Source: a virus. From it: a stretch of DNA of 64,000 bases. Below, piece after piece: positions 5,981 to 56,400 of the stretch. Below the pieces are notes generated by a model. That model was not told the DNA's origin. It did not search any database and saw only the letters and a program-made list of their open reading frames with translations. Position 1 is the stretch's first letter, and each line of letters opens with the position of its first letter. The position numbers were made by a program, and so were the translations under genes. The stretch spans positions 62,001-126,000 of the IMG/VR virus record IMGVR_UViG_3300022752_003639, one strand, 5' to 3'.

Positions 5981-6472
5981 ATGAGAATAATAGATATTTT
6001 AACAGAAGATAACAATTTAAGAACCGGCGATGTTCTAGCTATAGAATGTGATAATGGACTACTTATTGAATCTACCATAGTAGGATTTATGAACGACGGC
6101 GTAGTAATACAAGGAGACTCTGTTATTCTTTCTTATCTAAAATATGAACCTTTTAATGAATCTATCACAAAGTTTACCAGTATGGAACTGGCAGTTATGG
6201 AAGGCGGTGGTGATATTAGTGACTTATCTGAAGCAGAATATCAAGGTCGTAATGTCCCTTTAGGTAAGCCTATGGCGGGAGATGTCAAAAAGTCTAAAGT
6301 CTATGTTAAGGGACCAAGTGGTAGGGTAGTCAAGGTAAATTTCGGCGACAAGAAAATGAAAATTAAAAAGTCTAATCCAAAACGCCGAAAGAGTTTTAGA
6401 GCTCGTCATAATTGCAAAAATCCCGGACCACGTTGGAAAGCACGTTATTGGTCATGTAGGGCATGGGAATAA
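5981..6472 (+). CDS. Conserved hypothetical with basic Cys-containing C-terminus; candidate capsid-targeted protein
   Basis: 163 residues; ribosome site AGGAAAAA 8 nt before ATG. The N-terminus MRIIDILTE carries an LTE tripeptide at residues 7-9, like the cleavage signal of T4 internal head proteins. Residues ~10-60 look like a small beta-barrel. The C-terminal 45 residues are highly basic, with a conserved-looking KSFRARHNC...PGPRWKARYWSC block containing two Cys, Arg and Trp, suggestive of nucleic-acid or metal binding. I recall this C-terminal block in marine T4-like phage proteins without a known function. First gene of the ten-gene cassette ending at 15623. Confidence 0.8.
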   Translation: MRIIDILTEDNNLRTGDVLAIECDNGLLIESTIVGFMNDGVVIQGDSVILSYLKYEPFNESITKFTSMELAVMEGGGDISDLSEAEYQGRNVPLGKPMAGDVKKSKVYVKGPSGRVVKVNFGDKKMKIKKSNPKRRKSFRARHNCKNPGPRWKARYWSCRAWE

Positions 6473-6475
6473 ATC

Positions 6476-6832
6476 ATGTTACTTAACGAATTTTTTAATA
6501 ATCCTATAAATTTACATAGAAAAGAAAACCACGAATCGTCTACATATAAAGATGATTTGTTTCATTATATTTTAGATCATGACAAGCTGCATAAAGATTA
6601 TTTTTTTCCAATTGCAAAAAAATTAAAACATTTAAAAGAAAACACAGATAAAAAAATAATAGAAATTTTTATGCCTATGGTTATTAAGGGCTGTAAAGAA
6701 TATTATCATAATCAAAAAATGGAGGGTAGATTAAGTAAATTATTTCCTCAAGAAATGAGAGAGGAGCTTTGTCAACGTCTATACGATCACTACTATGAAG
6801 ACGTTCGTGCGGGCAAATATAGGCTGGGGTGA
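6476..6832 (+). CDS. Conserved hypothetical phage protein
   Basis: 118 residues beginning MLLNEFFNN, so an LNE tripeptide sits at residues 3-5. The remainder is predicted helical, with a run FHYILDHDKLHKDYFFPIAK (residues ~30-49) and later acidic/basic helices. No enzyme motif or membrane segment is visible. It starts 3 nt after the previous gene and its stop overlaps the region of the next start, so it is operonic. I recall similar proteins in T4-like marine phages but no function. Membership in a capsid-loaded group is inferred from the N-terminus and neighbours. Confidence 0.8.
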   Translation: MLLNEFFNNPINLHRKENHESSTYKDDLFHYILDHDKLHKDYFFPIAKKLKHLKENTDKKIIEIFMPMVIKGCKEYYHNQKMEGRLSKLFPQEMREELCQRLYDHYYEDVRAGKYRLG

Positions 6833-6834
6833 TT

Positions 6835-7722
6835 ATGTTTCTAGCAGAAGGTGGCAATGAATTTAAACTTGCAGATGGTAGCAATGCCACTAAACAGTCA
6901 GCGTCTACGGAAGAAGTAGATGCAGTCTTAGGTGCATTGAGCAAAGAAATAGGCATAGACTTACTGGCCAACGATCTAGAAAACAAACCTAAATATAAAA
7001 CAGGCAGTGCTATATATCCTGGTGCAGAAACAGGTGACGCAGACACACTGTTAGATCCTGTAGAATTTATACCTGTAGATAAAGGTGCCAAACCTAAAGA
7101 TGTGCAGAATCAATTTAGAGAATTTTTAGCCAAAAAACTACAGACAGCAGGTTATGAATTTCTTGAAAAGAAAGCCACAGTAGACCAACCAGGAAGATTC
7201 TATAAGATATCCGGAGATGGACTCACAGCCTGTGTGCAAATACCAGGCACAGAAGAATGGCTACAAGTAGACCTGGACATAGCAGAACCTGGAGAAGGTA
7301 AGTTTTCAGTATGGAGCAAACGTGGTGAACCTAATGAACCTGGCACACCAAAAGACAGTCGTGCCAAAGGTGCCTTTCGTCATATTCTGCTAGCGGCCAT
7401 AGGTAGTAAGTTAATCAGTCCAGAACATCCACAGGGCCTTAGTTGGAGTTTTAAGAATGGCCTATTTGACCGTGCTACCAAACAGGTAGTTAGCAAAGAT
7501 CCTAATGAAGTAGCCAATATCCTATTCGGTGGCAAGGCCAGCGATCTAGACAACATTAATGCCATACTGGCTAAATTTAAACAGACACATCCTAATCACT
7601 ATAATGATGTTGTACAAAATGTCAATGCTGGACTGGAAAAATATAACACACAGTATAGACTAAAAGAAAGTCATGCTGTGGGCACACCTCAATGGTTTAG
7701 GATCGTCCTGGATCTAATATGA
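6835..7722 (+). CDS. Putative Pol beta-type nucleotidyltransferase-fold protein; candidate capsid-targeted protein
   Basis: 295 residues from ATG 6835, preferred over GTG 6829 because GGGGTG is correctly spaced. The N-terminus MFLAE contains LAE at residues 3-5. The central sequence TGSAIYPGAETGDADTLLD (residues ~55-73) has the GS...DxD pattern of Pol beta-superfamily nucleotidyltransferases. A later acidic stretch (LQVDLDIAE) could provide the third carboxylate. Substrate is unknown. It lies directly before a ligase-like protein and a cytidylyltransferase-like protein. Alternative: an inactive fold. The next gene's ATG overlaps its stop. Confidence 0.65.
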   Translation: MFLAEGGNEFKLADGSNATKQSASTEEVDAVLGALSKEIGIDLLANDLENKPKYKTGSAIYPGAETGDADTLLDPVEFIPVDKGAKPKDVQNQFREFLAKKLQTAGYEFLEKKATVDQPGRFYKISGDGLTACVQIPGTEEWLQVDLDIAEPGEGKFSVWSKRGEPNEPGTPKDSRAKGAFRHILLAAIGSKLISPEHPQGLSWSFKNGLFDRATKQVVSKDPNEVANILFGGKASDLDNINAILAKFKQTHPNHYNDVVQNVNAGLEKYNTQYRLKESHAVGTPQWFRIVLDLI

Positions 7723-8849
7723 GAATTAGGGAACTACTAGAAGCGGCAGCAGTTGGTCGCAAATATCAACACATAGAAGACCTTGTGTTTACCAATGGTA
7801 GTCAAGGTGGACTTCATGCCGCAGAACGCCTGCGCAGCATGGCATCAACTGGTGGCACTGTTGAAATTAAGTGGGACGGTAGCCCTGTTGTCTACTGGGG
7901 GCGTGATGAACAAGGTCGCTTTTCAATGATTCCTAAAAATGCCTGGGAATATCTCAAGCGTGGCAAATCAGAAGTTGCCCCAGGTGTTCCTACTGCGATG
8001 TATAGTCCAGATGACATTAAAAAGTTTGTGTTGGGCACAGGCAAAGTAGAACCCGGTCAAGAAAAACAGCGACAGGCCTTTGCCAACAGCATGGCAGAAT
8101 TATGGCCCTACTTTGAAAAAGCCAGTCCACCTCGAGGTTATGTAGAAGGTGGTATACTGTTCAGTCCAGAAAAACCTGCTCAACTAAATTCTAAAACTAT
8201 GGAGTATGACTTTACTCCAAACATTACCAGCTTCCATATTCATAAAGACAGTGAGCTAGGACAGCGTATTTCCAAGGCCAAACTTATGGTAGCTGTTACA
8301 GGTTATTATGATAGTCTAGGCAGTTCAGATGAAGGACGTTTTCCAGATGCAGAAAAACTATCTACACCAGACGTAATTGTTCAAGGCACTACCTATGTGG
8401 CACAGGCACCTGGCATAGATGATACATTAGTAGATCAAGCAGAAGGTTTTATTGAAAAGAACGGTCAACGCATAGATCAATTCCTAGCACCCAAACCAGG
8501 ATTAAGTAAGGTAGGTGATATACTTTACAAATTCTATAACCAAAATCTGCGCATAGAAGGAACAAAACAAAAGTTTAAGGCTTGGGCAGCACAAAATCTC
8601 AGCCAATCGCAAGCTGCAAAGGTTCTAAACGATCCTGGTCTAGAAACTGTGCTAGATGCTGTAGAGTTATTGAGCAAGGCTAAAACAGATCTAATCACTA
8701 AACTAAGTTCAGGAACACATGCAGGTATTAGACAGACTAAACCAGAAGGTTATGTTCAAGCACATCCAGGTGGCAAATTCAAGAGTGATCTACCTGGGCA
8801 ATTTGTCAAGGCCATAGATCAAGCAACATGGGCACCAAGGAAAGACTAA
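7719..8849 (+). CDS. Nucleic-acid ligase-like adenylation-domain protein (DUF6267-like); candidate capsid-targeted protein
   Basis: 376 residues, ATG overlapping the previous stop (ATATGA). The N-terminus MRIRELLE carries LLE at residues 6-8. At ~48-62 EIKWDGSPVVYWGRD matches motif I (KxDG) of the ATP-dependent ligase superfamily, with Lys as the likely nucleotidyl acceptor. YVEGGILF and a late conserved Lys-rich C-terminus could correspond to later motifs. It resembles the RNA-ligase-like proteins (DUF6267) of marine T4-like phages as I remember them. Whether it seals RNA or DNA, or is a non-ligase adenylyltransferase, is open. The C-terminal ~120 residues are helical. Confidence 0.75.
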   Translation: MRIRELLEAAAVGRKYQHIEDLVFTNGSQGGLHAAERLRSMASTGGTVEIKWDGSPVVYWGRDEQGRFSMIPKNAWEYLKRGKSEVAPGVPTAMYSPDDIKKFVLGTGKVEPGQEKQRQAFANSMAELWPYFEKASPPRGYVEGGILFSPEKPAQLNSKTMEYDFTPNITSFHIHKDSELGQRISKAKLMVAVTGYYDSLGSSDEGRFPDAEKLSTPDVIVQGTTYVAQAPGIDDTLVDQAEGFIEKNGQRIDQFLAPKPGLSKVGDILYKFYNQNLRIEGTKQKFKAWAAQNLSQSQAAKVLNDPGLETVLDAVELLSKAKTDLITKLSSGTHAGIRQTKPEGYVQAHPGGKFKSDLPGQFVKAIDQATWAPRKD

Positions 8850-8850
8850 T

Positions 8851-11010
8851 ATGTTATTAAGACAATTATTTGAAAATACGTCAACACCTAAAACCGCAGT
8901 GTTAGGATGGGGTAGAGGTATGGGACACAAAGGTCATATGCTATTGGCCAAAGCTGTACTGCATCATGCTCAAGAAAATCAAGCTAAACCTTTCTTTGTG
9001 GTCAGTAGAACTAGTCTAGTAGATCCTAGCACAGGTCAACCCTGGGCAGATAAACCCACATTTACCAAGACCAAAGATGATCCTCTTACACCAGACGAAA
9101 AACTCAATACTTATCGCAAGGTATTCCCACAAAATGCAGAAGTATTCAGTGTGGCCACGGCAGATGCTACTAAGTTAGAACAGGTCATGGCAAAAATTGC
9201 CCGTGAAGGATTTAATAAAGTCATATTGGTTGTAGGTGAAGACCAAAAAGACTCAATGGGATATCTAACTCGTCCTGCTAAATCAACAGGCGTTCCACCA
9301 TATAAAGAAGCAGGAATAGATCAATTAGAAATTATCAGTAGGCAAGATACTACAGAACCCAGCAGTATGAGAGGCAGTCCAGAATATCAAGAAGGACCTA
9401 GAGCCACACCTATGCGGCAGGTCCTAATGGATCCCTCAAAGAGTGAACAAGAACAATTTGCCATATGGCGCAGAGACATGCCAGATAATTTAAGTGATGA
9501 AGAAGTCATGGATCTCATGCTCAAGGCTAAACAGCGTATGAGCATGGTTCCTGCTGGTAAGCGTGGCGTAAAAGAACGTATGCTACCACCTAGCACATTT
9601 GCAGGCTATCCAAAAAACAAACTTGGCGCTGCTGCTCATTTAAAAGGTAAAATGAAAAGACCTGCCAGAGCAGGTGATCTTGTAGGTGATGCTCAAGAAA
9701 GTATAGAAGAAGATTCATACAAAATTGCCCCCGGAGATAATTTATCCACTTTGGCTAAGAAATTTGGCACAACGGTAGATGCTCTAATGAAGGCCAATCC
9801 ACAAATAAAAGATGCTAATCGTATACAAGCAGGCGCTACACTAAATGTTCCTAGTCAAGGCAGTGATCCTAAAGGTTCAGTAAGATCCGGTCCTAACACA
9901 AATATCAGGCCAGATACAAGAGCAAGAGCACAGGCACAGGTAGCACCTTTAGACAAACCTAAAGCATCAATACCGCAAAAGTCTAATGCCTTACAAGAAC
10001 CTGGATTCATGGAAAAACTAAAACAGGTTGCAGACAATCTACAGATTAACGCAAATGATTTATTAGGTGTAATGAAACATGAATCACGTATGAATCCAGC
10101 AGCAGTGAATCAGCAATCAGGTGCTACAGGACTAATACAGTTTATGCCACGCACAGCGCAGAGTCTAGGAACTTCAACAGACGAACTCCGCACCATGAGT
10201 GCATTAGACCAATTAGATTATGTAGAGCGTTATTTTAAACCTATAGCAGGCAAGGCCAAAGACATAGGTGACCTATATATGTTTACATTCATGCCGGCAG
10301 CAGTGGGCAAACCAGATGACTTTGTAATTGGTGTAAAGAATGGTGACAAACCTTTGTTTGGTCTGAACCAAGGAAAATTATATGCTCAAAATTCAGTATT
10401 CGACAAAGATAAAAAAGGATATTATACTGTAGGTGATATCAAATCTCGTGTATCTGGATTTGCTGAAGGTGTAGAAGAAGGTTGGAAATCTAAACTAGCA
10501 GGACTTGGATTAGCGGCTGCTGCGGCTATGGCGCCAGGTAAATCAGATGCTAGAGTAAACATAGATGACCCAGATAGTTATCGTGCTCCGGCTCCTATAG
10601 CACAGCAACAAAAAATAGACTACACAGCACCCGGTCCTGTTACAAAAGACAGCATGGGACAGAAATTAGAGTATGGTATTCCTGTTACTCCAGACGGCAA
10701 ATTTAAGGCACCTAGTCAAGATTTACCAGACGACGAATATGCTCAACAGTTAAAAGCCTATAAGACATGGAAAGCAGACTTTATGTCTAGGTGGCCTGAC
10801 GCAGTATGGAATAGTGATGGTAGTGCGAAATCTAATATGAAACCAGGTCTAGCACCTATGGCGCCAGGATATAAACCGGGCAGTGGACAAGGACTAGCAC
10901 CTGTATTTCCGGGTGCGGTTAAAGAAGATAAATTTGTACCACTCAGTGAGGATGTAGCCAGTATCTACAAGAGTTTATTAGACACAATTTTAATTAACGA
11001 ACAAAAATAA
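8851..11010 (+). CDS. Fusion: nucleotidyltransferase-like + LysM + lytic transglycosylase; candidate processed head protein
   Basis: 719 residues; AAGGA 8 nt before ATG. Residues 1-8 MLLRQLFE hold LFE. Residues ~14-175 resemble an HxGH-type nucleotidyltransferase (GMGHKGH at 23-29, VILVVGEDQKDS near 124-135). Residues ~289-335 are a LysM peptidoglycan-binding domain (YKIAPGDNLSTLAKKFGTT). Residues ~384-480 are an SLT-type lytic transglycosylase with catalytic-type Glu411 (MKHESRMNP) and GATGLIQFMP. The last ~170 residues are low-complexity and Pro-rich. [L/I]xE tripeptides sit just before the LysM domain (IEE 285-287) and before the SLT domain (LQE 381-383), as if the chain were cut into separate proteins. 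No signal peptide or holin-like segment is seen. Confidence 0.85.
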   Translation: MLLRQLFENTSTPKTAVLGWGRGMGHKGHMLLAKAVLHHAQENQAKPFFVVSRTSLVDPSTGQPWADKPTFTKTKDDPLTPDEKLNTYRKVFPQNAEVFSVATADATKLEQVMAKIAREGFNKVILVVGEDQKDSMGYLTRPAKSTGVPPYKEAGIDQLEIISRQDTTEPSSMRGSPEYQEGPRATPMRQVLMDPSKSEQEQFAIWRRDMPDNLSDEEVMDLMLKAKQRMSMVPAGKRGVKERMLPPSTFAGYPKNKLGAAAHLKGKMKRPARAGDLVGDAQESIEEDSYKIAPGDNLSTLAKKFGTTVDALMKANPQIKDANRIQAGATLNVPSQGSDPKGSVRSGPNTNIRPDTRARAQAQVAPLDKPKASIPQKSNALQEPGFMEKLKQVADNLQINANDLLGVMKHESRMNPAAVNQQSGATGLIQFMPRTAQSLGTSTDELRTMSALDQLDYVERYFKPIAGKAKDIGDLYMFTFMPAAVGKPDDFVIGVKNGDKPLFGLNQGKLYAQNSVFDKDKKGYYTVGDIKSRVSGFAEGVEEGWKSKLAGLGLAAAAAMAPGKSDARVNIDDPDSYRAPAPIAQQQKIDYTAPGPVTKDSMGQKLEYGIPVTPDGKFKAPSQDLPDDEYAQQLKAYKTWKADFMSRWPDAVWNSDGSAKSNMKPGLAPMAPGYKPGSGQGLAPVFPGAVKEDKFVPLSEDVASIYKSLLDTILINEQK

Positions 11011-11013
11011 ATA
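11006..11013 (+). promoter_or_regulatory. Late-promoter-like octamer next to a start codon
   Basis: AATAAATA, one base from the T4 late consensus TATAAATA, ends 7 nt before the ATG at 11021. No Shine-Dalgarno is present. Transcription from it would begin within a few bases of the start codon, giving a near-leaderless mRNA. It overlaps the stop codon of the upstream gene. AT-rich chance occurrence cannot be excluded. Confidence 0.4.
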
Positions 11014-11020
11014 TATTATT

Positions 11021-11458
11021 ATGAAACAACTAATAGAAATAGCTAAAATTGCTTTTGCCAGTGAATTCAGTTTTTACTTAAAAGCACACCAATTTCATTG
11101 GAACGTAGAGGGTGAAGATTTCTTACAATATCACGACTTATTCGGTAAAATTTATGAAGAAGTATATGGAAGTATAGATGATTTTGCAGAAAAAATTCGC
11201 AGCTTAGGGTCTTACATGCCAGGCAGTTATACACGTTACAGTATGTTGAGTAAAATAGAAGATGAAGATCAAATACTTCCTAAAGATCAAATGGTATCTG
11301 AACTTATGAAAGATAACGAACGAATGTTAATTATTTTCAAACAGGTGTTCGATGCCAGTGAAGCTGAACATGAACATGGATTTAGTGATTTTATAGCAGG
11401 ACGTATGGACGCTCATCGTAAACATGGATGGATGTTAAGAGCATCAATGAAAAGATGA
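11021..11458 (+). CDS. Dps/ferritin-like protein
   Basis: 145 residues, four-helix Dps pattern. Residues 23-58 read AHQFHWNVEGEDFLQYHDLF and continue to DDFAEK. They align with the E. coli Dps ferroxidase segment: His26, His38, Asp53 and Glu57 correspond to Dps H51, H63, D78 and E82, while the position of D67 is Gly42. Dps proteins oxidise iron, protect DNA and some bind DNA. The protein is about 20 residues shorter than E. coli Dps and lacks its long Lys-rich N-tail. The N-terminus MKQLIE has LIE at residues 4-6. It sits inside the putative head-protein cassette, so packaging with DNA is possible. Its start lacks a ribosome site. Confidence 0.82.
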   Translation: MKQLIEIAKIAFASEFSFYLKAHQFHWNVEGEDFLQYHDLFGKIYEEVYGSIDDFAEKIRSLGSYMPGSYTRYSMLSKIEDEDQILPKDQMVSELMKDNERMLIIFKQVFDASEAEHEHGFSDFIAGRMDAHRKHGWMLRASMKR

Positions 11459-11796
11459 GAGCTAAAGAATTTATAAACGAAGATAAAGAAAAGAAAATTC
11501 GTATGGCATCGAGATTATCTCTACCATATGCGCTAAGATTAGATGGATCTGATCAATATTATGATTTTTACAGATTAGGATTGGCCATGGCAGGAGCTCC
11601 TGAAGACGGAACTCCGAAAGAAGGTCCAGCCAAAGATTCCCCTACTATTTGGCCATATTCCGATGCAGATGCACAAAAGGTAGAAAAAGCACTTAAAAAT
11701 CAAGGTGCGACCGGTAAGGTAATTATAAAAAAAGGTAAGAGTGAAGAACTGCCTTCAACAAACACAGTTAGCCCCGTAGCACAATGGATGAGATAA
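11455..11796 (+). CDS. Small conserved protein with T4-internal-protein-like N-terminus (paralogue 1)
   Basis: 113 residues from ATG 11455, which overlaps the Dps-like stop (ATGA). It begins MRAKEFINE, strongly resembling the T4 internal-protein targeting sequence MKTYQEFIAE; cleavage after INE would remove nine residues. The body is basic at first, then a compact domain with a Tyr-rich helix (DQYYDFYRLGLAMAG). It ends in STNTVSPVAQWMR. The following gene is a clear paralogue with the same beginning and end. Function unknown. Confidence 0.82.
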   Translation: MRAKEFINEDKEKKIRMASRLSLPYALRLDGSDQYYDFYRLGLAMAGAPEDGTPKEGPAKDSPTIWPYSDADAQKVEKALKNQGATGKVIIKKGKSEELPSTNTVSPVAQWMR

Positions 11797-12176
11797 TGAG
11801 AGCAAAGGAATTTTTGCAGGAAAGATCTGCTAAAACACATGGTAAATTTACAAGTTTATCAGCAGACGCAGATGCGGCACTTCCTGGTGTATGGGTACAA
11901 AGACAATTAAGAAATACTGATCCATATATGCAATATAGATATGCACTTGCTGTGGCAGCAGCAAGGGCAGATAAAAGTGGTGAAATAGAATTTAAACAAG
12001 AAAGTCCATGGGCTGAAAATTTAACCATAGTAGGATATACTCCAGAAGATGCAGATGTTGTTTCCATGGCAGATAAATTAATGGGAGTCAAAGGTACACG
12101 TATTGCTGATGATAAAAGTAAAGAACCTAAAGATACAAACACCGTAAGCCCTATACCAAATTGGAATAAATCATGA
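11796..12176 (+). CDS. Small conserved protein with T4-internal-protein-like N-terminus (paralogue 2)
   Basis: 126 residues from ATG 11796, overlapping the previous stop (TAATG). It begins MRAKEFLQE (LQE at 7-9) and ends DTNTVSPIPNWNKS, matching the preceding protein at both ends. The middle shares a Tyr-rich helix (DPYMQYRYALAVAAARAD) and a DADVVSMADKL segment corresponding to DADAQKVEKAL in the paralogue. Tandem duplication followed by divergence is the simplest reading. No catalytic motif is visible. Confidence 0.82.
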   Translation: MRAKEFLQERSAKTHGKFTSLSADADAALPGVWVQRQLRNTDPYMQYRYALAVAAARADKSGEIEFKQESPWAENLTIVGYTPEDADVVSMADKLMGVKGTRIADDKSKEPKDTNTVSPIPNWNKS

Positions 12177-14974
12177 GCGAATATAAGAAAATAACTACAC
12201 CCACTTTAACTCGTTTCGTTCTAGAAACTATGACCGCAGGTGCCACAGGTTCTGCAAATATTGCCACATCGATGGGCACTATAGGCAAGACTATCAAGCG
12301 TCAACAAGAAGCCAAAGATGACAAGGTGCCTCAAAAGCCACGTCAAGGTCCCCTACGCCCACAGACAGGTGCAGGCGCACACAAAGATAAAAAGCGAGAT
12401 CAAAAACAGGGCAAAGAAAAACATCGCAAGCCTTTCTATGAGCAACATACAGATCATGAAGTGGAAATGGCGCAGAGTGATACATACCAGTTGGCCAAAC
12501 AGGCTGCAGAACTACATAAAATTCTAATGCGTGCCAGTGAAGAGCAGGGTCTAGAAGGTTGGCAACAGGCTAAGATCACAAAGGCAGCAGACTATATCAA
12601 TGCTGTCTACAAAAATCTCAATCACGATGTAGACATGGACGGTCATATTGGTGAGCAAGCTCTATCAGAATTAGAAAAACCCAGCGGAACACTTTATATA
12701 ATATTATTAAGAGACAGAACAGAATCTGTTCGTGTAGTAGGAGACTTTGGGACATTTCCAGCAGAAGTGCAGGCCCGTGCCAGCAAGGTAGGTATTAAGG
12801 ATAAAGAAGGTCGCAAAGAGCGTCCTCTAAAAGTTAATTTTCTAATGACTAGTGCCAGCCAGGCTCTAGCAGAATTAGACAAAGCACTAGCAGATGTAGA
12901 TTTTATCGGCGGAGAAAAGGCCGAGTTCGTATTTAAAAATTCTGCTTTTGAAACAGACATAGAAGATGAGGTGAGGGAACTAAATGATCTAATTCGAAGT
13001 GGTGCGGACGAAAGATTTAAGAACTATGAAGAACCAGAAGTAGGTTCCGAACCAGAGACCAAACCTAAAGGTGTAGATCATTTTGTTGTTGGTCCAGATG
13101 GCAAGCGTCGTCGTGTGCCTATACCAGGAAAGCCAAGTAGTCAAATGGGAGGTCATGCTGTAGAACAACCTAAAACATTTACCTACCAACTTAAGAAAAC
13201 AGAACTAGGTCCTAAACTACGCTCAATGGGCTTTAAGGTAGATGGTAGTCAAATTGTATTGAGCAAACAACAGCGTGATCAATTACTGGCAAAAATGGGT
13301 GATCAACAGTTCGGACAGATATTCGGCCAGGGTGGTAAGTTCACAGAAGGTGGCTATGACGATCAGTTTAGCCTCGGAGGCAGACTAGAAAGAGACGACG
13401 ATTTTCGCAATAGAGAACGCAATGCTGGAGTTGAACATGAAAGAAATAACTACCAGGTAAGCATAAATGGTAGGCCTTGGAAAGTGTTTGCCGATCAAAG
13501 GCAAGCTATGAATATTGCTAGAAGTCTTAAAATGAAAGGCAAAGAAGTAGAAGTTTATCCTACAGGAGCTAGGCCCTCAGAAAGCGTGGGAGAGGCAGTG
13601 AAGAAACCTAATGCTACTACTCGTCATTTAAGAGATTATCCAGTTAGTGATAAGGACGTGGCCAAGCCTGTTAAGAAACCTGAAAAGAAAAAACCAGAGC
13701 AAGGTGTGGCGGAAATGGACAAGAGCCAACCCAGCCACGGTCGTGATGGTAAGATTAGCCACAGCACCTATGGTTCAAGAGATAAAGAAGGTTCTGACTA
13801 TTTCAAAGGTAAGGAAGTTTCTGTTAAGCCTATTACCGTAAAGAAGATGGAAAAAGACGCACTTGATATTCTCAAGAAGCAAGGTGTGGCGGAAGGCTCA
13901 TTGGAAACTGACAATATGGTATCACATATTAGTCAGGTAATACAAAGCATTTATCCACGCGGTGGTGATAAAAATACATATATGAAACTGGTAGCCCGAG
14001 AAATGCCACGTATAGTGAAAGCCAATCCTAAACTATTCAGAAGAGCATTCGGTATGGCATATGATAGATTCTTTCATATAGACCAAGACGACGATCAAGA
14101 TGACGATTTTGATTATACTGATCATAGTATGCGTAAGGGTGAGCGTGGTATGGCGGAAGTCAGAGGCAATATTGATGCTGATCAAGCAGGATTTTATGTT
14201 GTCGACGAGGACGGAAACGCAGTTTCTGGTCCATTTGCTTCTAAACAAGAAGCATACGAACGAGCAGCCGAAATGGGTCGTATGTATGATGTAAAATATA
14301 AAGGTGATATAATACCTTTAGATTCGTTAATTAGTAAAATAATAAAGACACTACCACCAGATGTAACAAGTGATGATCTTCAGGACCCAATGGATCTTGA
14401 GCAACAATTAGAAATACTAAGAAGTCCATTAGTAAAAGTATTTTCTAAATTATCACCTTACGAACAAGCCGAAGTCACAGACGAAGTAGCGAATTATTTT
14501 TATGACAGAAGATTTGGTGATTTAGATGAAGGAAAGATCAAAGGTGTGGACGGTAAAGCCTGCTGGAAAGGCAAGCGTTATGCTGGCAAGGTCAAGAAAG
14601 CAGATGGCACCTACAAAGACAAATGTGTAGAGGATGTAGTAGAAGCACTAGAAGAAGTTAAAAAAGGTCTTTACTACTATGTGAACAAGCGTAAGAAGGC
14701 AGGCACCAGTAGACCAGCCAGCCATCCAGATGCTCCAAGTCCACAAGACTGGAAGAACGCTGCCAAGACTGCTAAGAAAGAAGATACCTATTCAGAAAGT
14801 CTGTTGAATCAACTGGATGCACTGTTAAATGAAAAGGCACCTCCAGGTGACAAGTATGAGCGTATGGTCAAGCATATTAAAAAAGGCTATAGCAAAGACG
14901 GCAAAATTACAGACAAAGAACGCAGCATCGCATATGCTACAGCATGGAAGGCTAAAAACAAGGCAAAAAAGTAA
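12173..14974 (+). CDS. Large modular head-associated protein, zero-frame product (candidate polyprotein)
   Basis: 933 residues; ATG overlaps the previous stop (ATGA). It is highly charged and made of short modules separated by Lys/Glu-rich linkers. Residues 16-18 are VLE. ~105-150 is a helical unit with QAKITKAADYINAVYKNL, recurrent in marine T4-like phages. ~428-465 is a small sheet unit. The linkers at 509-514 and 569-574 share KQGVAE-type sequence, and 658-662 reads RGMAE. ~790-818 is a Cys-containing GKACWKGKRYAG unit. ~830-868 is KGLYYYVNKRKKAGTSRP. ~884-928 is LNEKAPPGDKYERMVKH followed by KDGKITDKERSIAYATAW. Such punctuation suits processing by a prohead protease. The reading frame ends at a probable -1 frameshift site (14965-15014). 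Confidence 0.85.
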   Translation: MSEYKKITTPTLTRFVLETMTAGATGSANIATSMGTIGKTIKRQQEAKDDKVPQKPRQGPLRPQTGAGAHKDKKRDQKQGKEKHRKPFYEQHTDHEVEMAQSDTYQLAKQAAELHKILMRASEEQGLEGWQQAKITKAADYINAVYKNLNHDVDMDGHIGEQALSELEKPSGTLYIILLRDRTESVRVVGDFGTFPAEVQARASKVGIKDKEGRKERPLKVNFLMTSASQALAELDKALADVDFIGGEKAEFVFKNSAFETDIEDEVRELNDLIRSGADERFKNYEEPEVGSEPETKPKGVDHFVVGPDGKRRRVPIPGKPSSQMGGHAVEQPKTFTYQLKKTELGPKLRSMGFKVDGSQIVLSKQQRDQLLAKMGDQQFGQIFGQGGKFTEGGYDDQFSLGGRLERDDDFRNRERNAGVEHERNNYQVSINGRPWKVFADQRQAMNIARSLKMKGKEVEVYPTGARPSESVGEAVKKPNATTRHLRDYPVSDKDVAKPVKKPEKKKPEQGVAEMDKSQPSHGRDGKISHSTYGSRDKEGSDYFKGKEVSVKPITVKKMEKDALDILKKQGVAEGSLETDNMVSHISQVIQSIYPRGGDKNTYMKLVAREMPRIVKANPKLFRRAFGMAYDRFFHIDQDDDQDDDFDYTDHSMRKGERGMAEVRGNIDADQAGFYVVDEDGNAVSGPFASKQEAYERAAEMGRMYDVKYKGDIIPLDSLISKIIKTLPPDVTSDDLQDPMDLEQQLEILRSPLVKVFSKLSPYEQAEVTDEVANYFYDRRFGDLDEGKIKGVDGKACWKGKRYAGKVKKADGTYKDKCVEDVVEALEEVKKGLYYYVNKRKKAGTSRPASHPDAPSPQDWKNAAKTAKKEDTYSESLLNQLDALLNEKAPPGDKYERMVKHIKKGYSKDGKITDKERSIAYATAWKAKNKAKK

Positions 14975-15014
14975 GTGAGCAGGAACCAGAAGATCCGACC
15001 ACGGATCCTGCTCA
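14965..15014 (+). promoter_or_regulatory. Programmed -1 ribosomal frameshift signal
   Basis: The slippery heptamer A AAA AAG (14965-14971) sits in the zero frame (GCA AAA AAG TAA), immediately before the stop codon. Four nt later (14976) a strong stem begins: TGAGCAGGA (14976-14984) pairs with TCCTGCTCA (15006-15014). GATCCG (14992-14997) can pair with CGGATC (15002-15007) around an ACCA loop as an inner or competing stem. A -1 slip enters an open frame of 77 codons that ends exactly at the next gene's start (TAATG). This is the arrangement of the E. coli dnaX signal. An indel error in the six-A run is the main alternative, but it would not explain the hairpin. Confidence 0.82.
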
Positions 15015-15204
15015 GAAGATAAAACCAGTCGGGCCACAACCTAAACTAACACCTAACATGCCTCTAGATACATGGGTAGATAGATTTAAGAATGAAAAGA
15101 ATGTGTCCAAATATAAACAGTTTAAAAACAAGAGTCCGGAAAAACGTGAACAAATGGCCTGGGCTGCTTACTATGACGCACATGAACCAAAAAGGAATGC
15201 ATAA
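14971..15204 (+). CDS. -1 frame extension of the large modular protein (77 codons)
   Basis: After slippage the frame reads VSEQEPEDPTTDPAQ, then IKPVGPQPKLTPN, then a helical basic domain beginning MPLDTWVDRFKNEKNV and ending YYDAHEPKRNA, stop at 15202-15204. The first 29 codons have no ATG, GTG or TTG start, yet look like an acidic, Pro-rich linker. That argues for entry by frameshift rather than independent initiation. The fused product would be 1010 residues. An ATG at 15058 could alternatively give a stand-alone 48-residue protein, but no clear ribosome site precedes it. The stop overlaps the next ATG (TAATG), consistent with translational coupling. Confidence 0.75.
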   Translation, partial: VSEQEPEDPTTDPAQKIKPVGPQPKLTPNMPLDTWVDRFKNEKNVSKYKQFKNKSPEKREQMAWAAYYDAHEPKRNA

Positions 15205-15623
15205 TGAGATCATATATTGCCATAGTTGAAGCGTTGAATAAGGGCTGCCCTGTGGCCACATATAATCTAGATGTTAATCTAAAAAATCGTCAAAAGGCCA
15301 TAGATGAATATCATTATGGTCCTGCTAATCCAGATGATGCCGGCGACTACTGGAAGAAGGCTGCTGCAAGATGGAATATCACAGAAAAAACTGCTAAGAC
15401 TATGAAGTGTGGAAATTGTGCTGCCTTTGATGTGTCTGATAAAATGCGTAAGTGTATGGAAGATGGTATCAAGGGGGACGACAAGGCTGTAGACAGTATG
15501 GCCACAATCGAAAAAGCAGATCTAGGTTATTGTAACTTCTTGCACTTCAAATGTGCCGGAACTAGATCATGCACAGCATGGGTCACAGGCGGGGTAATAG
15601 ATAACAAAGATAGAACTGAGTGA
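15204..15623 (+). CDS. Cys-rich conserved phage protein, putative metal or Fe-S binding
   Basis: 139 residues starting on the stop of the frameshift frame. The N-terminus MRSYIAIVE gives IVE at residues 7-9. Residues ~35-60 contain YGPANPDDAGDYWKKAAARW. Cysteines cluster afterwards: CGNC, MRKC, LGYC, FKC and RSC, i.e. six Cys between ~73 and ~126, plus an early one. The order and spacing suggest a structural zinc or iron-sulfur site. I recall homologues in marine T4-like phages with no assigned role. Last of the ten genes sharing the N-terminal tripeptide. Confidence 0.8.
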   Translation: MRSYIAIVEALNKGCPVATYNLDVNLKNRQKAIDEYHYGPANPDDAGDYWKKAAARWNITEKTAKTMKCGNCAAFDVSDKMRKCMEDGIKGDDKAVDSMATIEKADLGYCNFLHFKCAGTRSCTAWVTGGVIDNKDRTE

Positions 15624-47429: not shown

Positions 47430-50400
47430 TTATAATCCTTGTAATAAATCACCATCATTCTCTGCTAGTGGGTCATTGTTTTCATCATATAATTCTAAGT
47501 TTCCTCCATAATAGTATACGCTTGGTAATTCAGCCGGTCCACGACGTAAGAACTTAGCTTGAGTGCTTGTACTAGTCAATATCGAACTGGTTGAAATATC
47601 CCAAATCTTACTGGTTTTCTTAATTACAGTAATTCTAACACCTGGAATAACTTCTTCGCTAATATTTAACCTTAATGTTTGACTCGTGCCCACTTGTATT
47701 GAAAACTCTGGAGGTAAAATTTCATAACTAGCTGTATATACACCATTTACAAATACAGAAGATGTATTATCATAAGCACGACTTATATCATGCACGGTAA
47801 CAGAATCCTTACGTAAACGACGACCTCCATAATATACTTCTACCTGATCTTCGAAAGCAGGTAACACACCATTAGTTGTAGTGGTTAATAAAACTATACC
47901 ATTTCCTACACTAGTTGTTGTATTAACACTGAAAGAACTAGTATTAGTTAGAGTACTAATAATGTAGGTTGTTGTATTGGAACTAGGAATATGTTGTATA
48001 TAACTTCTTTCTTCCGTGGACATATTCTGTCTCATACTCTGATCATAGACTAATGTACCAGCATCTGAATACCAAGGAGTACCAGTACCATAAGTTCCCC
48101 TGCGTAATTGTGTAAGTTCGTTACCGTTTTTCACAAAAAATTCAATTCTTTCACTGTCAATAAACACAACACCTGGTATATTTTTACTAGGATTAGGAGA
48201 AAATAATACACTTCCATCTTCAACATGAATACTTGTATCATAATAATTTAAAGGCTGCGCCAGACGAGTCCTAAAAAATCTTGTTATACGTTGTAGACTT
48301 TGTCTGTCAAAAATATCTTTCCATATTCTGTAGGCTAAAATATTCGTTGAATAATTCACCGGATTAATTGTATTAATTACAATCTTAGATCCTAATACCA
48401 TATCAACATCATTACCAATTACAACCGTTTGCATATCTGACTTCAAATAAAAATCAAATCCTGCAATAAGTGACTGATCATTTGCAGTGACCCAAACGTA
48501 GTTTTCATTGAAAACTGGCAGGCTTAGGTAATATTCGTTGTTGTGACTTAGGTCAAAAGTTTCAGTTCTTATTCCCATAGAATCATGATTTTGGAAATGG
48601 GTTACCTTTAATGATCCGCTGGTAAGTGCAGTTTTTAGTCTAATCTGATTTTCTAAAACAACGTAACCATAATCAACTAGATCCATAATTGTTATGGTAT
48701 CATTATTCCTAAGAATGCCTGTATTAATTGTAACAGTTTCAGCACCTTGATTAATAGTAAAATCAAATCCTGGTCTAATTTCATATCCATTTACATAGAC
48801 TTTTACATTTTGGTTATTATAAATTCTTCCGCTGCGTTTATTGTTAATATCATATGTATTTTGTAAGTTGCTTACCTTGTAATAACTTATATCAGGAGGA
48901 AGCAATCTTACTCTGCTACCATAATTATTACCAGATAAATGTTCTACTATCACCTGACCAGATATTGGTTCTAGCATAAAGGGCGGACTTGCAAATGTCA
49001 GTAAAGAAGTTGTTGTACTAATGACATAGTACTGCTCGACTATACGATTTAGTGATTCAAAATTATTTCTAAAAAACCATGCTAGAACTTCATGCCTACC
49101 AGAAGGTATATTTTTAATTTTTACAGACGCACGTTTGTTGTCTGCACTGACCGGTTCTAATACATATCCTAACGATGTGCCTGTTACATATTGGTTAACT
49201 GATACTCCATCGAGCTCAACATAAGCTCTGCTGACATCGCTGAATGCTAGATCACTAATTAAAATTGTATTAGATGTTGTCACAAAATCAACTGCTGCTG
49301 TTTGACTGTCTAAGCCTGTAGATGATCCTGCTGTTACATAGGAATATCCAATTTTACCTTGTGCGCTTTGAGCTGCTACAGTTAGTTTATTTCCTTGCAA
49401 GAAGTAACTACTGCTGTTTAGTCCGGGTAAAGGATATGACGACGACCTACTTAAAGGTCTTCCGTCAAAAGTTACTAATAATCCTGCAGGTATTTCACCT
49501 GTTATAAAGTTTATTGTGGCCGTTGTCTCTACTCCCGGTTGAGTAAAAATAGCACCATTAAACATTATAGGATTTATTTTTTCAGGTCTAGTGTATACAC
49601 TTAAAGATAAACTATCTTTTGTATCTCCAGGAACAAATTCTTCTGGAGCATAACTTCTAAATGGATTAACTAATCCATCAGGATTAAATGAGGCTGAAAT
49701 TTGTTGACTTTCTGAACTAGCTTTAATGTAATTTTCAACGTCCAATAAAGTCTGATAACCGTCGACTATAGTTTGTACCCAATAATCTAATCCTCCCTGG
49801 TCTGCATGTCTGTATAGGTATTTTAGATAATACCCATCAATAGAATCTGCATAAACTGTAGCAGTTGTGCCTGGAACTGTTGTATTAAGTTTATTGCCAT
49901 AATATTGACCAACTGGTTTAATCCATCCTCCGCCTTGTACAGAAACATCAGTGGCCGTGATTCCAAATGCACTGGTATTCGTACCATTAAAATAACTGCC
50001 ACCTGATAAATTCACTGTTAATAAATCAGGATCATAATTGTACTTCCAAAAATCTATTTCAGTGTATCCGTATATAGTAGCTGTTGCAGTGGTCATCACT
50101 CCTGTGCTTACCCCAGTAACATTAATAACAGCTCTGGTTACTGTGCCTGAACTAGTTGTTATATACCAGGTAGGTGATCCTGAACTAAATTGCACTGTAG
50201 CAGTTGCAACTTGAGAAAATATTGCATAAGTTTGTATAGAAAAAGTAGAAGTTCCTGTGCTCAGCTTGACTACTTTGTCTAAGACTGATGCTGTAGAACT
50301 TACTGTACTAAGAATACTTAATATTCTAACCTGAGTAGCAGTAGTAACCTGCGAAGTAGTTGCACTAAGAACTTGGGTAGCAGTTACCTCGAAAGTTGAA

Positions 50401-53400
50401 TTAGTAGTGGTTAAAATTGAATATAAACTATTGAAAGTATTATTAACAACATTGGTTATTAAAACTTTATCTCCAACTTTGATGTCACCTCTAAACAACT
50501 TAGTAGTCGTAAACGTAATTCTAGAACCAATTGCAGTGGCAGTGGACACTACCTTTTTAATTCTATAAGTAGGACTACTGATAGTTATTTCGTTTGTATT
50601 TGAGTTTATTGCAGTGACAATAGTTTCAGGTCTTATTCTAATAGTACTGGTATTGCCAATAATTATACTTTGCCCTGTTGTGATTCCGGTGGTTGTGTTA
50701 ACTTTTATTATAGTAGAAGTAGTGTATAAATCTTCTTTTAATTTTACAGTAACATATTCTTGAACTAAATCATCCCAAGGAGCAGTATCATAATTTGTTG
50801 TTCCCCAAGGTGGTGTATCTTGAAATATCATTCCTTCATAAGTAGTCAATGGATAGTCTAATCCAGATACCAAATTAGGAACATCTTTTTCTAACATACC
50901 TGTTGTAGGATTGTAATATTGTTCTATTCTTTCTACAGCATTAAAAAGTGAAATGTTCTTTTTATAAACTACTTTGAATACCTGGTTCGCAGACGGTATC
51001 ACATTTAATAAAGTTATACGAGTAAACGATTTTGCATAATACCCTTCATAATCTTGTTTAAAATATTCTAACTTGTAATCTGTAGAATAGATTAACTTTC
51101 CATTTAAGGTAGGAGTAATTGTACTTCTATCTGTGTTTGCTAACCAGGTTAGTACAAATGTATTTTGCTCTCCGTTACAGATAAATTGATCAGTAACATA
51201 GACATCTTCTATTTCAACGTCCTTAGAAATTCTATCAAATTTAAAACCAATTAAATTTTTACGGATAGTATCATTTGCGATTATAACACTAGCCGTGGCC
51301 TGTTGAGTAACTGAGTTTCCTCCGCCGGTAAACTGAATAATCGGCGCAATAAGGTAACCGCTTCCTGGATTTGTAACTGTAATTTTAACAACTTTTCCTG
51401 CACGTATAAATGCTTCTGCGGTTGCACCTGAACCAAAATCACCACTTACAGGTACTAAAGTTACAGTAGGTCTTTGTGTATATCCTTGTCCACCGTCGGC
51501 AACAATTATTTCCTTAACATAATATGTATGATTCTCTGTCCAGTTTTTCCAAGGCAAGACATTTGTTAATGTGTTGGTTAATGTAAATGCTGTGGCAGTA
51601 GATGTACTTGAAATATGCATCGGAAAGTAACCTAGAGTTTCTTGACTATAAACCGGAGGCATATCGAAGTCTGTTATATTATGTGAAAAATATTCAATTG
51701 CATTATATTTTGAAGTATAATTCCTTAATTGACTATGATAAGGTTTAATTTCTTTAATATAATCTTCAAAATATTTTTCGTTTTCTAATTTATAAACTGC
51801 CCGTTGATCTAATACTCCAAGATCAGTAACAAAATTAACAAATGATGTTTTAAATGCCCAATCTAACATCTTCTGTTCGGTTAATGCATAACGAACACCT
51901 GCAAAAAATAATAAATTCCAATAAACTTTTAAGGCATCTTTGAAAATATCATGCTTTAAAGCATTAATAATATTTCTTAATTCAATAACATTTTTTTGGT
52001 CAAATAGAGTATCCGACAAACCTGATTCGTCATAGTTATAAACTGATAATTCAGTATTCCATAGCTTATCGAGAATTTTAATTGTTCCAGATTCAACGTA
52101 TACACTGTTATAAAATGGTGTTAATGTTCCGTTATTAACTCTTTCAACTATAGTAAATTTGCCATTACCGTTGTTTTTCACTTTAATATACGTTCCTAAT
52201 GGAGCATTATTATAAGCAGTTATACTAGATAAGTTATCTAAAACATACAAAGGAGTTTTAAATTCATTGTAATCATCTGATTTCCAATCAATATAATCCC
52301 AAAATTCTTCAGTATTATAACGTTGGGCGTAAACTTTTACCCATTGATTTAATTGCTTGTTATATTCATGAGCTGTCCATCGTCCATTATTTTCTGCATT
52401 ACTTGTTAATATCGCTGTATAGGAACGAACATAAAGTAACGGAGCTGTTACAAATTCATATCCAGAATTTTCAATTAAGGTAGAAATGATTTCTCCGAAC
52501 TCGTTAATAAATGTTCTTATAGTTGCAGGGGTCTTATTTTCTAAAATTACAACATTAGGTGCAAACAAATAACCTTTTCCAGAATTAACGATATTAACTG
52601 CAACTATTTTTCCATTTTCTACTACACAGGTTAATTGTGCCTGTATAAAAGCTATGGTATCTATTTGAGATAATTGTTGAATAGTATCTACTAAAAAGTC
52701 ATATTTTCCTAATGACTCTGACGGTATTTCATCTTTTAATTTTAAGTTGTCTAAGTTATATAAACCTACAATTTCTTCTTTAGACAATCTGTAATTTGCA
52801 AATGATATAATATTCCTTAGAGCTTCTATTCTATTTTTAAATATTGTTTGTTGCGGTCTGATCCCTATACCATATCTATTTCTATAGGTTAAACTAGGAT
52901 CAGGTACTGGATTACCATCTATGTCTTCACCTAATAAGCTGTCAATAAATTTTTTCTCTAGTAACGCATTAGGAACACTATTAGCATCTCCTTCTGTTAA
53001 CAATAACCATTCTGTATGTCTTGGAATAGGATTATTTTTATTGAACGATATATTAGCACTTATGCGATCATCTATTAATAAAGGCTGTACATTTGCAAAC
53101 GCTACAGAATTAGGACTTAGCAAGGCTGCAAATCTAACACCATTTGCCTGTGGATCTGAAATATAGCTAGCAACTTGGTATGCACTTAATCTTCTATTTT
53201 TTACATCAGGAACTATCAATTTATTTTTTACCCAGAAATAATAAACATTTTCAAATATTCCTGAAACGCTATTATAAATTTGTTTGACAGATATAACTTC
53301 ATTATTAGGATATTTAGGTTGCCCGCTTATTCCCGATGTAATACCCTCGTTGGTATCTGCCTGCGCAGCCCATACACTTGGCAATACATTAGATCTTACC

Positions 53401-56400
53401 CATTCATAAATGTCAATGGTAGATCCGGGAAATACTTTACCCCAATTATTCTTTCTAAAAAGATCATCTCCTTGTTCATACCATGTAAACTTAACTGTAC
53501 TTAGATCCCACCATAATTCGCCGACATGCTCATCTAACCAATTATTTTTATCATCTACAATATTGCTAGATCGACCAATTGAATATATTGCAGGATCACT
53601 AGGAGTTTTATATTTTAATTCCTGCTCTGCTAGTCCTGAAATTTTACCCTTTAACGGATCTATCACTTCTAAATATTCTGTAACTTCTTCTTTATGCTTA
53701 TCTATTAGCGCAATTCGTTCTGCACTATTCGTATCTACTAAATTAGGTTGCTGACGTTTTACAGAAAATATAGATGGCATATCGAAAATAAATGCCATGC
53801 TATTGTCTTCGCCTTGTGTAGTTTCAGAATAAGGAGCGCCAACATATGAGTATCTATTGGTAGAAACTACATCATATCCATATCTACTACCTTCAACTAC
53901 AGCATTATCAATTAGTTCGTGTGCCAGTACAAAATATGAACCAAATCTCTGGTAAGCATAGACAACACCTGCATCAGGAACTATTTCAATAAATTTAGTT
54001 GTACCACCATCAAAAGTAGTTTCATTCTCTTGACTGCTCTTATCAAAAATTAAAGTAACAGATCTATTCGTACCTAGCCCGCTGACCAAAAGTTTCGTTT
54101 CATTTCTATCCAATGACAAACTATGACCAAACTTAAGATCGCTAATAGCCACTGGGTTATAAAGACTTTGTAAAAACTGATATTTGTTATTGCTGTTTAA
54201 TCTGTAAATTACTACAGCTCCATATGAAGTGTCGTAATTTCTATATTCTGGAGCACTGACAATTAAGTATCTTCCTGAATACGAAATAATATGATCCTTA
54301 CCGAATTCTCCTACTGGGCCTGCCGGATTGAATAGTGTTTGATAATGAGTAATCAAGGCATTTGTATATCTAAATACCTGTACCACTCCTGAAGATGTAG
54401 AATCCTGATAACCAGGAGCACTTACTGCTACCAAGGATCCTGTAGCACTACCGCTAACTTTATAACCCCACTGGTCACCTACTTTTAATGTTACCGAACT
54501 AGTCGAATAAACTGCAATTCCACTAAAAGGAATACCGATCTGTATTCCTGCGGCTTTTCTAATTCTGTATGCATAGACATTGCCTTGAGTACCAGTTGTT
54601 ATATTAGTTACTGCGCTTACTATTGTTGCAGAAACTGTTGAAGTAGTTGTAGTATTTAAAGCAAATGTAACTTGATTAGGATAAATGTAAAGCCCTAGAC
54701 CTATATTTTTAGTTCCAGGTGCACCTACTAAAAGTAAAGTATTAGAGGTAGTTGTTACTTCATTTATGTACACAGAATGACCAAATCGTATTCTATCTGA
54801 AGATGTGGAAGAATTAGGGTAAGGATTAGTTAAAACTGCTTCTACTATTTCGTCATCATTGTAAGGTCCTATACTACTGATTTTTACAAGACCTTCGTCT
54901 TCGTATATTCTAGGACTTATTGTTAAATATCCTGTACTGGAAGTAATACTACTAGTAGTAGCCGACAATGACATTGTCCATTGAACATAATCAGGGCTTA
55001 CTACAAATCCGCTATTACTTATTGCTCTTCCTGATGCAGAAAGAACTGTAGCACTATTACTAATAAGAATATCTATTCCATAGACAACATCACTAGGTTC
55101 TTCCTCTAATCCTGTAAACCCATAGATGTTACTAGCTCTTGGTGCGCCGACAATTATATAATTTTTGTTATAATCATAAGCCATGCTGTAACCAAACTCG
55201 GTTGGTTTGGTAGCATTAGCATAGGTTAAATTACTGGAATTTAATGTGTATTCGAACAACCTCTTAGGTAGATCATTTTCTCTTGAAAATACTTTTACCC
55301 TACCATAACTGTATGTAGCAGATGTATAAAAATTAGGCGCTGATACAAAAAATTTATCAGTTCCGTCTCCTGCCCAAATAGTATGACCTAGCTCTTGGGC
55401 GGAAGGTTCTGGAATTGAAGTAATATAGTCTGTTGGATAATCTGTTGTTTTTTCGTACACCTGCCATTTGTTATTGATGCCGCTGTCTACCCAAAATAAC
55501 TCACCTTGATCTAGAGTTAATAACTGTTTCTTATTAACAATTTCTAACAATGTAGAATATCTAACAACGTCAAACACAAACAAATTTCCATAGGCAAATT
55601 GTTCTTCATTTTGTATAGAAGTCAAGGACGATTGAACTGTAAACTGATTAACCTGAGGAATAGCTGTTACTATATATACACCATTAACCTGCGAATTAAA
55701 ATTTACTACACTAACTATATCACCTATACTGAGATAATGATGTAAATTACAACTAAACGTAATATTTTCTCCAGGAGAACTTACATATACTCCGGAAATC
55801 TTTGCTATTTTTTTAATGTACCTATAAACAGACCATTGACCGTTTTCTAAAAATCCGGTCCAAATAGTAGATTTATTTTGTATTTGATTGTTACGAGCAA
55901 TATCTAACAAACTGTTTTTATTATAAGCCGTAGCTGTTACATCATCTAATCTTACGTATCCAGCTGTTGGTAAAATTATCCCAGCATCGTTGAATGTACC
56001 AGATAACTCTGAAGCTGATTGTGTGTAGTTAGAATCTGGTACTTGGATATTTTGTACAGTTATAGTCGGAAAAACTGATGTAGATACATAATCTACAGGA
56101 GTTAATAACAAATCATTTGGTGTAATATAATTAATTAATGGACTAGAATCGTTAGGTAACGACTCAACAAAAGTAATTAAGTATGGATTTTCTAAACTGG
56201 TACCTTCTATTAGCGGAAATTCAACTTCATCATAATTGCTGAATCCTCCATAAAACCCTGACCTAAATGCCCATTCTTCATTAAAGGTAATATCTCCTTT
56301 GTTAACAAACTTACTTGCCTTAGATAATTTGTCAATGGCATTTTTTGTACCTTTATCTTTAATATATCCCTGATAAAATTTATATTGGCTGATAGAATTT

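Follow-up and report, generated by a model that had tools for sequence, protein, structure and literature searches.

An N-terminal tag resembling the T4 capsid-targeting sequence, and recurrence of its predicted cut code at internal module joints, in a predicted head-cargo cassette of a T4-like phage

A run of genes in an uncultured virus encodes proteins that start alike, with a short peptide ending in [LI]xE. The gp21 protease of phage T4 cleaves after L/I-x-E (PMC9026906; also PMC3012670); mutation of T4 IPIII showed that positions 4 and 7 of its tag set targeting and positions 8 and 10 set processing, and T4-like phages in general may make use of the capsid-targeting tag (PMC9026906). The locus raises the question whether these proteins are loaded into the phage head and cut there.

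The record and its tagged gene block

The window, i.e., the whole stretch of 64,000 nucleotides that was studied, covers bases 62001-126000 of the 138,457-base virus record IMGVR_UViG_3300022752_003639, the remainder of which was also analysed. A simple codon-based caller placed 172 genes on the whole record. It is a fragment of a T4-like phage, with further genes for ClpA, PhoH, DnaJ and peptide deformylase, and with genes that we take, from recognition of their sequence, to be replication genes (DNA polymerase, clamp loader and gp46/47-like). At 47430-61388 of the window (minus strand), a single 4652-aa open reading frame lies amid large minus-strand genes and is probably tail or fibre related.

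The block at 5981-15623 is one operon-like run of 11 genes (Table 1). The initial annotation had counted ten, overlooking a 48-aa gene (118) without the motif, and each of the N-termini that it quoted is present in the sequence. [LI]xE with its E at residues 4-10 occurs in 9 of the 11 block genes and in 7 of the 161 other genes of the record (Fisher 2e-9, for a comparison chosen after the fact), i.e., the tripeptide is not equally common elsewhere. In 100,000 label shuffles, no window of 11 genes held 9 matches (maximum 8) and no window of 8 genes held 8 (maximum 7); equal-sized internal protein windows contain [LI]xE 6.5% of the time. Genes before and after the block were first described as free of the motif; gene 92, upstream of the window (record 55252-55995; 247 aa; MRKHLKEG / MNLNE), belongs to a family in which 12 of 16 N-termini carry it, and is possibly another head protein.

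Table 1. Genes and predicted or candidate cut sites of the block, with motif-bearing ORFs of relatives (positions are those of the window unless a relative is named; an arrow marks the end of a tag or joint)
Feature	Position	Strand	Description
Gene 109	5981-6472	+	163 aa; tag MRIIDILTE and two modules, the second after LSE84 (phrog_7595 domain)
Predicted internal cut site LSE, residues 82-84 of 109	6224-6232	+	supported by relatives
Gene 110	6476-6832	+	118 aa; MLLNEFFNNP; targeting half of motif kept in 16/16
Gene 111	6835-7722	+	295 aa; MFLAE↓GGN; predicted polymerase beta/mu-type nucleotidyltransferase fold
Gene 112	7719-8849	+	376 aa; MRIRELLE↓AAAVGRKYQH; DUF6267; invariant KWDG
Gene 113	8851-11010	+	719 aa; MLLRQLFE; cytidylyltransferase/NMNAT-like domain, LysM, SLT transglycosylase
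Candidate cut site IEE285-287 of 113	9703-9711	+	directly before LysM (290-334); position only
Candidate cut site LQE381-383 of 113	9991-9999	+	start of SLT region (379-535); position only
Candidate cut site FAE537-539 of 113	10459-10467	+	after SLT region; weak, one relative
Gene 114	11021-11458	+	Dps/ferritin-like; MKQLIE contains LIE by chance
Gene 115	11455-11796	+	113 aa; MRAKEFINE; paralogue of 116
Gene 116	11796-12176	+	126 aa; MRAKEFLQE; homologous module internal after RAVAE in relative L020
Gene 117	12173-14974	+	933 aa; polyprotein-like; TRFVLE↓TMTAGATGSANIAT (E18) and, after it, modules joined at xxE
Predicted gp23-like cut site VLE16-18 of 117	12218-12226	+	gp23-type junction
Predicted cut site LSE164-166 of 117	12662-12670	+	LSE↓LEKPSGTLYII; LYE, VME, LDE here in relatives
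Candidate cut site VAE512-514 (QGVAE) of 117	13706-13714	+	QGVAE-type joint; GLKE↓MDKSQ in one relative
Candidate cut site VAE572-574 (QGVAE) of 117	13886-13894	+	motif; no relatives at joint
Candidate cut site MAE660-662 (RGMAE) of 117	14150-14158	+	motif; no relatives at joint
Predicted cut site LDE784-786 of 117	14522-14530	+	before GKIKGVDGKACWKG module; LPE, VAE, KNE, VEE, TDE, VDE in relatives
Predicted cut site LEE826-828 of 117	14648-14656	+	before KKGLYYYVNKRKKAGTS module; supported by relatives
Gene 118	15058-15204	+	48 aa; untagged; large proteins of relatives contain a similar segment close to their C-terminus
Gene 119	15204-15623	+	139 aa; MRSYIAIVE
gp67-like ORFs with the motif	L112 8490-8714; L114 8995-9237; L115 8324-8572		MFLNEMY, MILRELFY, MFLREFIY

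The tag in relatives, in T4 and in cyanophage virions

Loci of 99 relatives were fetched with proteins 116 and 113 as queries, their genes were called, and the proteins were clustered on the sequence beyond residue 15, which kept the tag from influencing the clusters. The motif was present in the homologue N-termini of families 112 (37/43), 113 (32/37), 111 (23/27), 110 (16/16) and 115/116 (30/38; the search patterns of query 116 partly included its own N-terminus, which may inflate family 116 and leaves the other families unaffected), as well as of two further cassette families absent from the record (23/24 and 9/9). Nearly all of the housekeeping neighbour families were without the motif, and most had not one instance. 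The homologue N-termini gave a fuller motif, M[RK][IAL]xE[FL][LIF](x)E, which is far more specific than the tripeptide and was derived from the same data. Gene 119, whose tag is putative, has no counterpart in the loci that were fetched, a tblastn search of isolates with 111 and with a module starting NFADGKN gave no match, and the nucleotidyltransferase of Klebsiella phage K64-1 carries no tag.

A short propeptide ending in (L/I)xE on otherwise unrelated proteins, the property by which the members had been proposed as capsid-targeted, is found in 109, 112, 113, 115 and 116 and partly in 110 and 111. Family 110 conserves M[LK]LxEFF, with no conserved cut site downstream, and these proteins may for this reason be targeted without being processed. 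The Dps-like protein 114, at first included as a DNA-binding member, was rejected as a tagged one: the motif occurs in 1 of 18 distinct homologue N-termini of this family, and the match in MKQLIE is thus a coincidence. Family 115/116 (window 11455-12176) has a conserved C-terminal TNTVSPVA, followed by KxKRNKYGV or NWNKxK as alternative endings.

Two explanations that need no targeting signal can be weighed here. Chance combined with the shared ancestry of duplicated genes could draw on the facts that 115 and 116 are paralogues and that about 6% of windows contain the tripeptide, but the other families are dissimilar past their first residues and the clustering was matched by no permutation, which leaves this account with very little probability. 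Just as remote is a cause at the DNA level, be it ribosome binding, the context of the translation start or a regulatory element that is repeated. It would suit the placing of all signals at gene starts of one operon-like run, but the motif is also used inside proteins as a joint, neighbours 114 and 118 in the same run lack it, and identical hexapeptides are encoded by up to 13 different DNA spellings. We rejected a DNA-level cause as contradicted by this synonymous diversity, from which it follows that selection acts on the peptide.

The T4 genome (271 proteins) was taken as a control. The bare [LI]xE rule matches 37 of the 271 proteins, including eight known gp21 substrates (gp21, gp22, gp24, gp67, gp68, Alt, IPII and IPIII), and was rejected as a marker on its own for being too loose. 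A position-specific profile trained solely on the uncultured relatives, without T4, placed Alt at rank 1, gp24 at 3, IPIII at 9 and IPII at 10 of the 271; on the record itself, with the family of the scored protein left out, the top six were 112, 109, 113, 116, 110 and 115. Rank 5 in T4 is held by gene 61.1 (NC_000866, 18966-19130, minus strand), which encodes 54 aa starting MKTFKEFIKE, a classic example of a capsid-targeting sequence, and is possibly an unrecognised T4 internal protein.

Searches of the whole 138-kb record for gp21 (PF03420) and gp23 (PF07068) gave no match. The right end of the record falls directly after the gp46/47-like genes; in two relatives (G007 and G003) such genes adjoin a head module, gp20-67-68-21-22-23. 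Since the record stops at these neighbours of the head module, its absent head genes probably sit just beyond the contig end. Four relatives extend into the head module, and each of them encodes a T4-type gp23 (E 1e-80 or better) and, adjoining it, a Peptidase_S77/gp21 homologue (S77, PF03420; E 4e-26 or better; at 11576-12202 in L114), i.e., a gp21-like protease, for which the initial annotation had advised looking, is absent from the fragment and present in every relative with head genes. Candidates for the scaffold proteins gp22, gp67 and gp68 lie between portal and gp23 in relatives, as judged by position and composition. The gp67-like ORFs of 74-82 aa, located between portal and gp68/gp21, carry the N-terminal motif (Table 1).

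The N-terminal region of gp23 in relatives ends with TRKYLAE↓SATAGATSAGNVATL, a predicted cut junction. This junction, LAE↓SATAGATSAGNVAT, recurs after MKIRELLE on proteins of 60-85 aa (in the version MKIRELLE↓TATAGATSAG) and close to the start of the proteins of the 117 family, and its pattern occurs past residue 90 four times in 311,151 residues. In relative L007, one QGVAE joint stands before gp23-type sequence. FVLE at residues 15-18 of 117, listed at first as the exception to the N-terminal rule, turned out to represent a real second class, a gp23-like cut junction; the shared junction ties both the tag and this exception to the predicted cut site of the capsid protein.

Three published cyanophage virion proteomes list non-structural enzymes whose route of entry the available text leaves unexplained. 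Mass spectrometry found in S-CREM2 virions the SAM hydrolase gp6 (MKDFDSFLEE), gp13 (MKDLHSFLTE), the kinase gp14 (MKRFDAFLTE) and the cytidylyltransferase gp154 (MKNFSSFLTE) (PMC10665884), in S-SZBM1 virions the cytidylyltransferase gp140 (MRFRQFIIE) (PMC9146016), and in S-SCSM1 virions an NMNAT (MKSFLQFLKE) whose gene lies within a run of virion proteins (PMC9602691); the S-CRM01 kinase (MISFDQFLSE) is cited as a virion protein in PMC10665884. Tagged homologues of 113 are thereby recorded in the virions of S-CREM2, S-SZBM1 and S-SCSM1, and most of the tagged cyanophage virion proteins agree in kind with T4 IPIII at positions 4, 7, 8 and 10. In the S-CREM2 data available, F[LIM]xE within the first 12 residues, a motif picked after viewing these proteins, marks 5 of 210 genes, of which 4 encode virion proteins (p 0.01). 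The profile of the relatives tells S-CREM2 virion proteins apart from the others only weakly and without overall significance (19 v 112 genes, p 0.08), the majority of virion proteins being structural and the cyanophage tag following the T4 register. The S-CREM2 protein gp12 (OR473000, 7704-10313), detected in the virion and annotated as Cas9-like, carries LRFASFMAE at residues 17-25, a shifted tag.

The order DUF6267 to cytidylyltransferase in S-SZBM1 equals that of 112-113 in the window; gp141, the DUF6267 neighbour of gp140, has no tag and is not among the virion proteins listed in the available text. The S-SCSM1 virion proteins 89, 90 and 92 also have no tag, and the tag is therefore not the sole route into the virion. 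The cyanophage authors caution that the enzymes could be contaminants of the preparation. In our partial coverage of the literature, just one T4 review joined capsid targeting with cyanophages.

T4-style capsid targeting with gp21-type cutting, as initially proposed, is strongly supported by several independent lines: (i) the motif on unrelated families, (ii) the blind recovery of T4 proteins, (iii) the protease and gp23 in relatives, (iv) the shared junction, and (v) published cyanophage virion mass spectrometry. We consider tag-based targeting to the head very probable.

Internal xxE joints

Overlooked in the first reading was that interchangeable modules are joined, inside larger proteins, at the same xxE code that ends the tag. 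A module standing behind the tag in one phage stands behind an internal xxE of a larger protein in another, e.g., MRAKEFLPE↓GAKAHGSFVGIGA and RERKRAVAE↓GAKAHGSFIGIGA (98% identical over 60 residues), or MKISEIIVE↓NFADGRN and PVAE↓NFADGKN. At 43 independent internal junctions, [LIVMF]xE lies no more than 3 residues from the module start in 35 and exactly at it in 25, against random expectations of 3.7 and 0.6, respectively; five of the remaining eight nonetheless end in E. Sites of the form [QKRN][GA][VMI]AE are about four times denser in large cassette (tagged) proteins than in others, and mutated patterns are rare. The cyanophage isolates P-SSM2 and S-CAM9 contain module chains of the same kind.

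In the window, the joints supported by relatives are LSE84 of 109, residues 166, 786 and 828 of 117 and, with one relative, residue 514 of 117. Position or motif matches are residues 287, 383 and 539 in 113 and residues 574, 662 and 887 (a further candidate site) in 117. The AEYQGRNVPLGKP module, which stands behind LSE84 in 109, is preceded by [LI]xE in four contexts among relatives, and the module of 112 is also found internally, after xxE. For 113, the IEE285-287 joint showed no xxE in the few relatives aligned, and no relatives were found at the LQE381-383 junction among the fetched loci.

That cutting takes place at the internal joints seems to us somewhat better than an even bet. If the N-terminal tag alone were real, the joints would be uncut acidic linkers between domains, an account that we consider unlikely but take seriously, given that E is common in linkers, that P3 is not hydrophobic at several joints (QNE, ENE, NNE, TDE), and that for three joints in 117 and two in 113 there is just a match of position or motif. 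Against it, the same module begins at residue +1 after tag or joint (exact in 25/43, with 0.6 expected), the QGVAE pattern is four times denser in tagged proteins with mutated patterns rare, and the QGVAE joint in L007 precedes gp23-type sequence. A different objection concerns the fate of the proteins: they could be structural parts of the scaffold core, like T4 gp67, gp68 and gp22, that are chopped and lost from the head instead of being delivered. The T4 proteins gp22, gp67 and gp68 likewise begin with [LI]xE, and the gp67-like ORFs of relatives share the N-terminus (MFLREFIY, MILRELFY); the cassette, however, contains enzyme domains (SLT, LysM, cytidylyltransferase and the pol-beta fold) and varies between phages, and tagged homologues of its enzymes remain in mature cyanophage virions according to the published data available. 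We regard a scaffold-core role as improbable, and hold it very likely that the block is a cassette of head-loaded cargo cut by the head protease, and probable that part of it is made as polyproteins.

Predicted cargo, its delivery and known systems

The presence of nucleotidyl-transfer folds and a cell-wall hydrolase, suggested at the outset, agrees with the predicted fold of 111 and with the cytidylyltransferase/NMNAT-like, LysM and SLT domains of 113. Protein 111 gave a Foldseek match to Pol mu (E 5e-4, prob 1.00, TM about 0.4) and a profile match to the TUTase Tailor (E 0.006), and has invariant G57, S58, D68, D70 and D146 (GS...DxD...D active-site residues); from the predicted fold and these residues we assign it to the pol-beta superfamily of nucleotidyltransferases. 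Protein 112 (DUF6267) has an invariant K51-W-D-G54 and its best fold matches are RNA/DNA ligases, but with E 0.03 and TM 0.2, and no sequence match was found; it is possibly a ligase-like nucleotidyltransferase. The proximity of 111 to this possible ligase invites the speculation that the two serve RNA/DNA end repair right after entry.

In the proposed mechanism, a short amphipathic tag, mostly M[RK][IAL]xE[FL][LIF](x)E, would direct a protein into the scaffold core of the assembling head, where a gp21-type head protease would cut after [LIVM]xE and remove the tag. Protein 117, and probably also 113 and 109, would be polyproteins from which cuts at the same code release a number of smaller proteins within the head. 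The cargo would comprise the pol-beta-type nucleotidyltransferase, the DUF6267 protein, the NMNAT/cytidylyltransferase with its cell-wall hydrolase, and small, often basic proteins; by analogy with T4 Alt and IPI, it would exit with the DNA and act immediately in the new host. For the phage of the record we infer encapsidation and cleavage, and likewise injection, on the model of T4 Alt and IPI, and functions of the cargo in the host.

The closest known system is the tag of T4 IPI-IPIII, Alt and gp24, likewise a short N-terminal tag with hydrophobic residues that ends in [LI]xE and stands on sequence-unrelated proteins; a gp21-family protease and gp23 are present here in relatives. The tag described here is usually one residue shorter and the contiguous cassette is larger, and multi-module polyproteins with repeated internal sites are not described for T4 cargo in the literature found; in T4 it is core proteins such as gp22 that undergo many cuts, and these are for the most part discarded. 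The enzymes of T4-like cyanophage virions (NMNAT/cytidylyltransferase, APH/ChoK kinase and SAM hydrolase) include the 113 homologue and share a T4-type tag, which the available text of the publications describing these proteins does not mention; in contrast to the tag of the window, most cyanophage tags retain the T4 register exactly (MKxFxxFLxE).

Polyvalent proteins combine many domains per polypeptide and are predicted to be packed in the head and freed by proteolysis (Iyer, Burroughs, Aravind 2017, PMC5512222). Proteins 113 and 117 resemble them in holding several distinct domains and in the shuffling of modules between proteins. Polyvalent proteins embed a peptidase domain, whereas in the present proposal the head protease would make the cuts at xxE sites in trans: Pfam gave no protease domain in 113 or 117, and the sole 'peptidase' label from PHROGs, phrog_21656 on 113, covers the SLT region. 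In the heads of the giant phages phiKZ and SPN3US, too, a prohead protease of gp21 ancestry cleaves ejected proteins behind xxE, in some cases at several sites within the propeptide; these systems differ in the A-x-E motif of SPN3US and in their long propeptides, and interchangeable cargo modules are not reported in the available text.

It is somewhat more likely than not that freshwater and marine T4-like phages make part of their injected kit as polyproteins, in which one tag loads the whole chain and the head protease frees the modules at [LIVM]xE (often QGVAE) joints. A cut at the tag and a cut at a joint would give identical mature N-termini, so that modules would be free to switch between stand-alone and fused forms, as plug-and-play head cargo. 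The tag offers a readable sequence code for head-carried proteins of T4-like phages beyond the T-even phages in which it was defined, and a possible mechanism for the unexplained enzymes of cyanophage virions. It also marks proteins of unknown function (DUF6267, DUF6321, DUF5872 and many PHROGs) as likely virion cargo, and the joint code would make the polyprotein idea testable on existing virion mass-spectrometry data.
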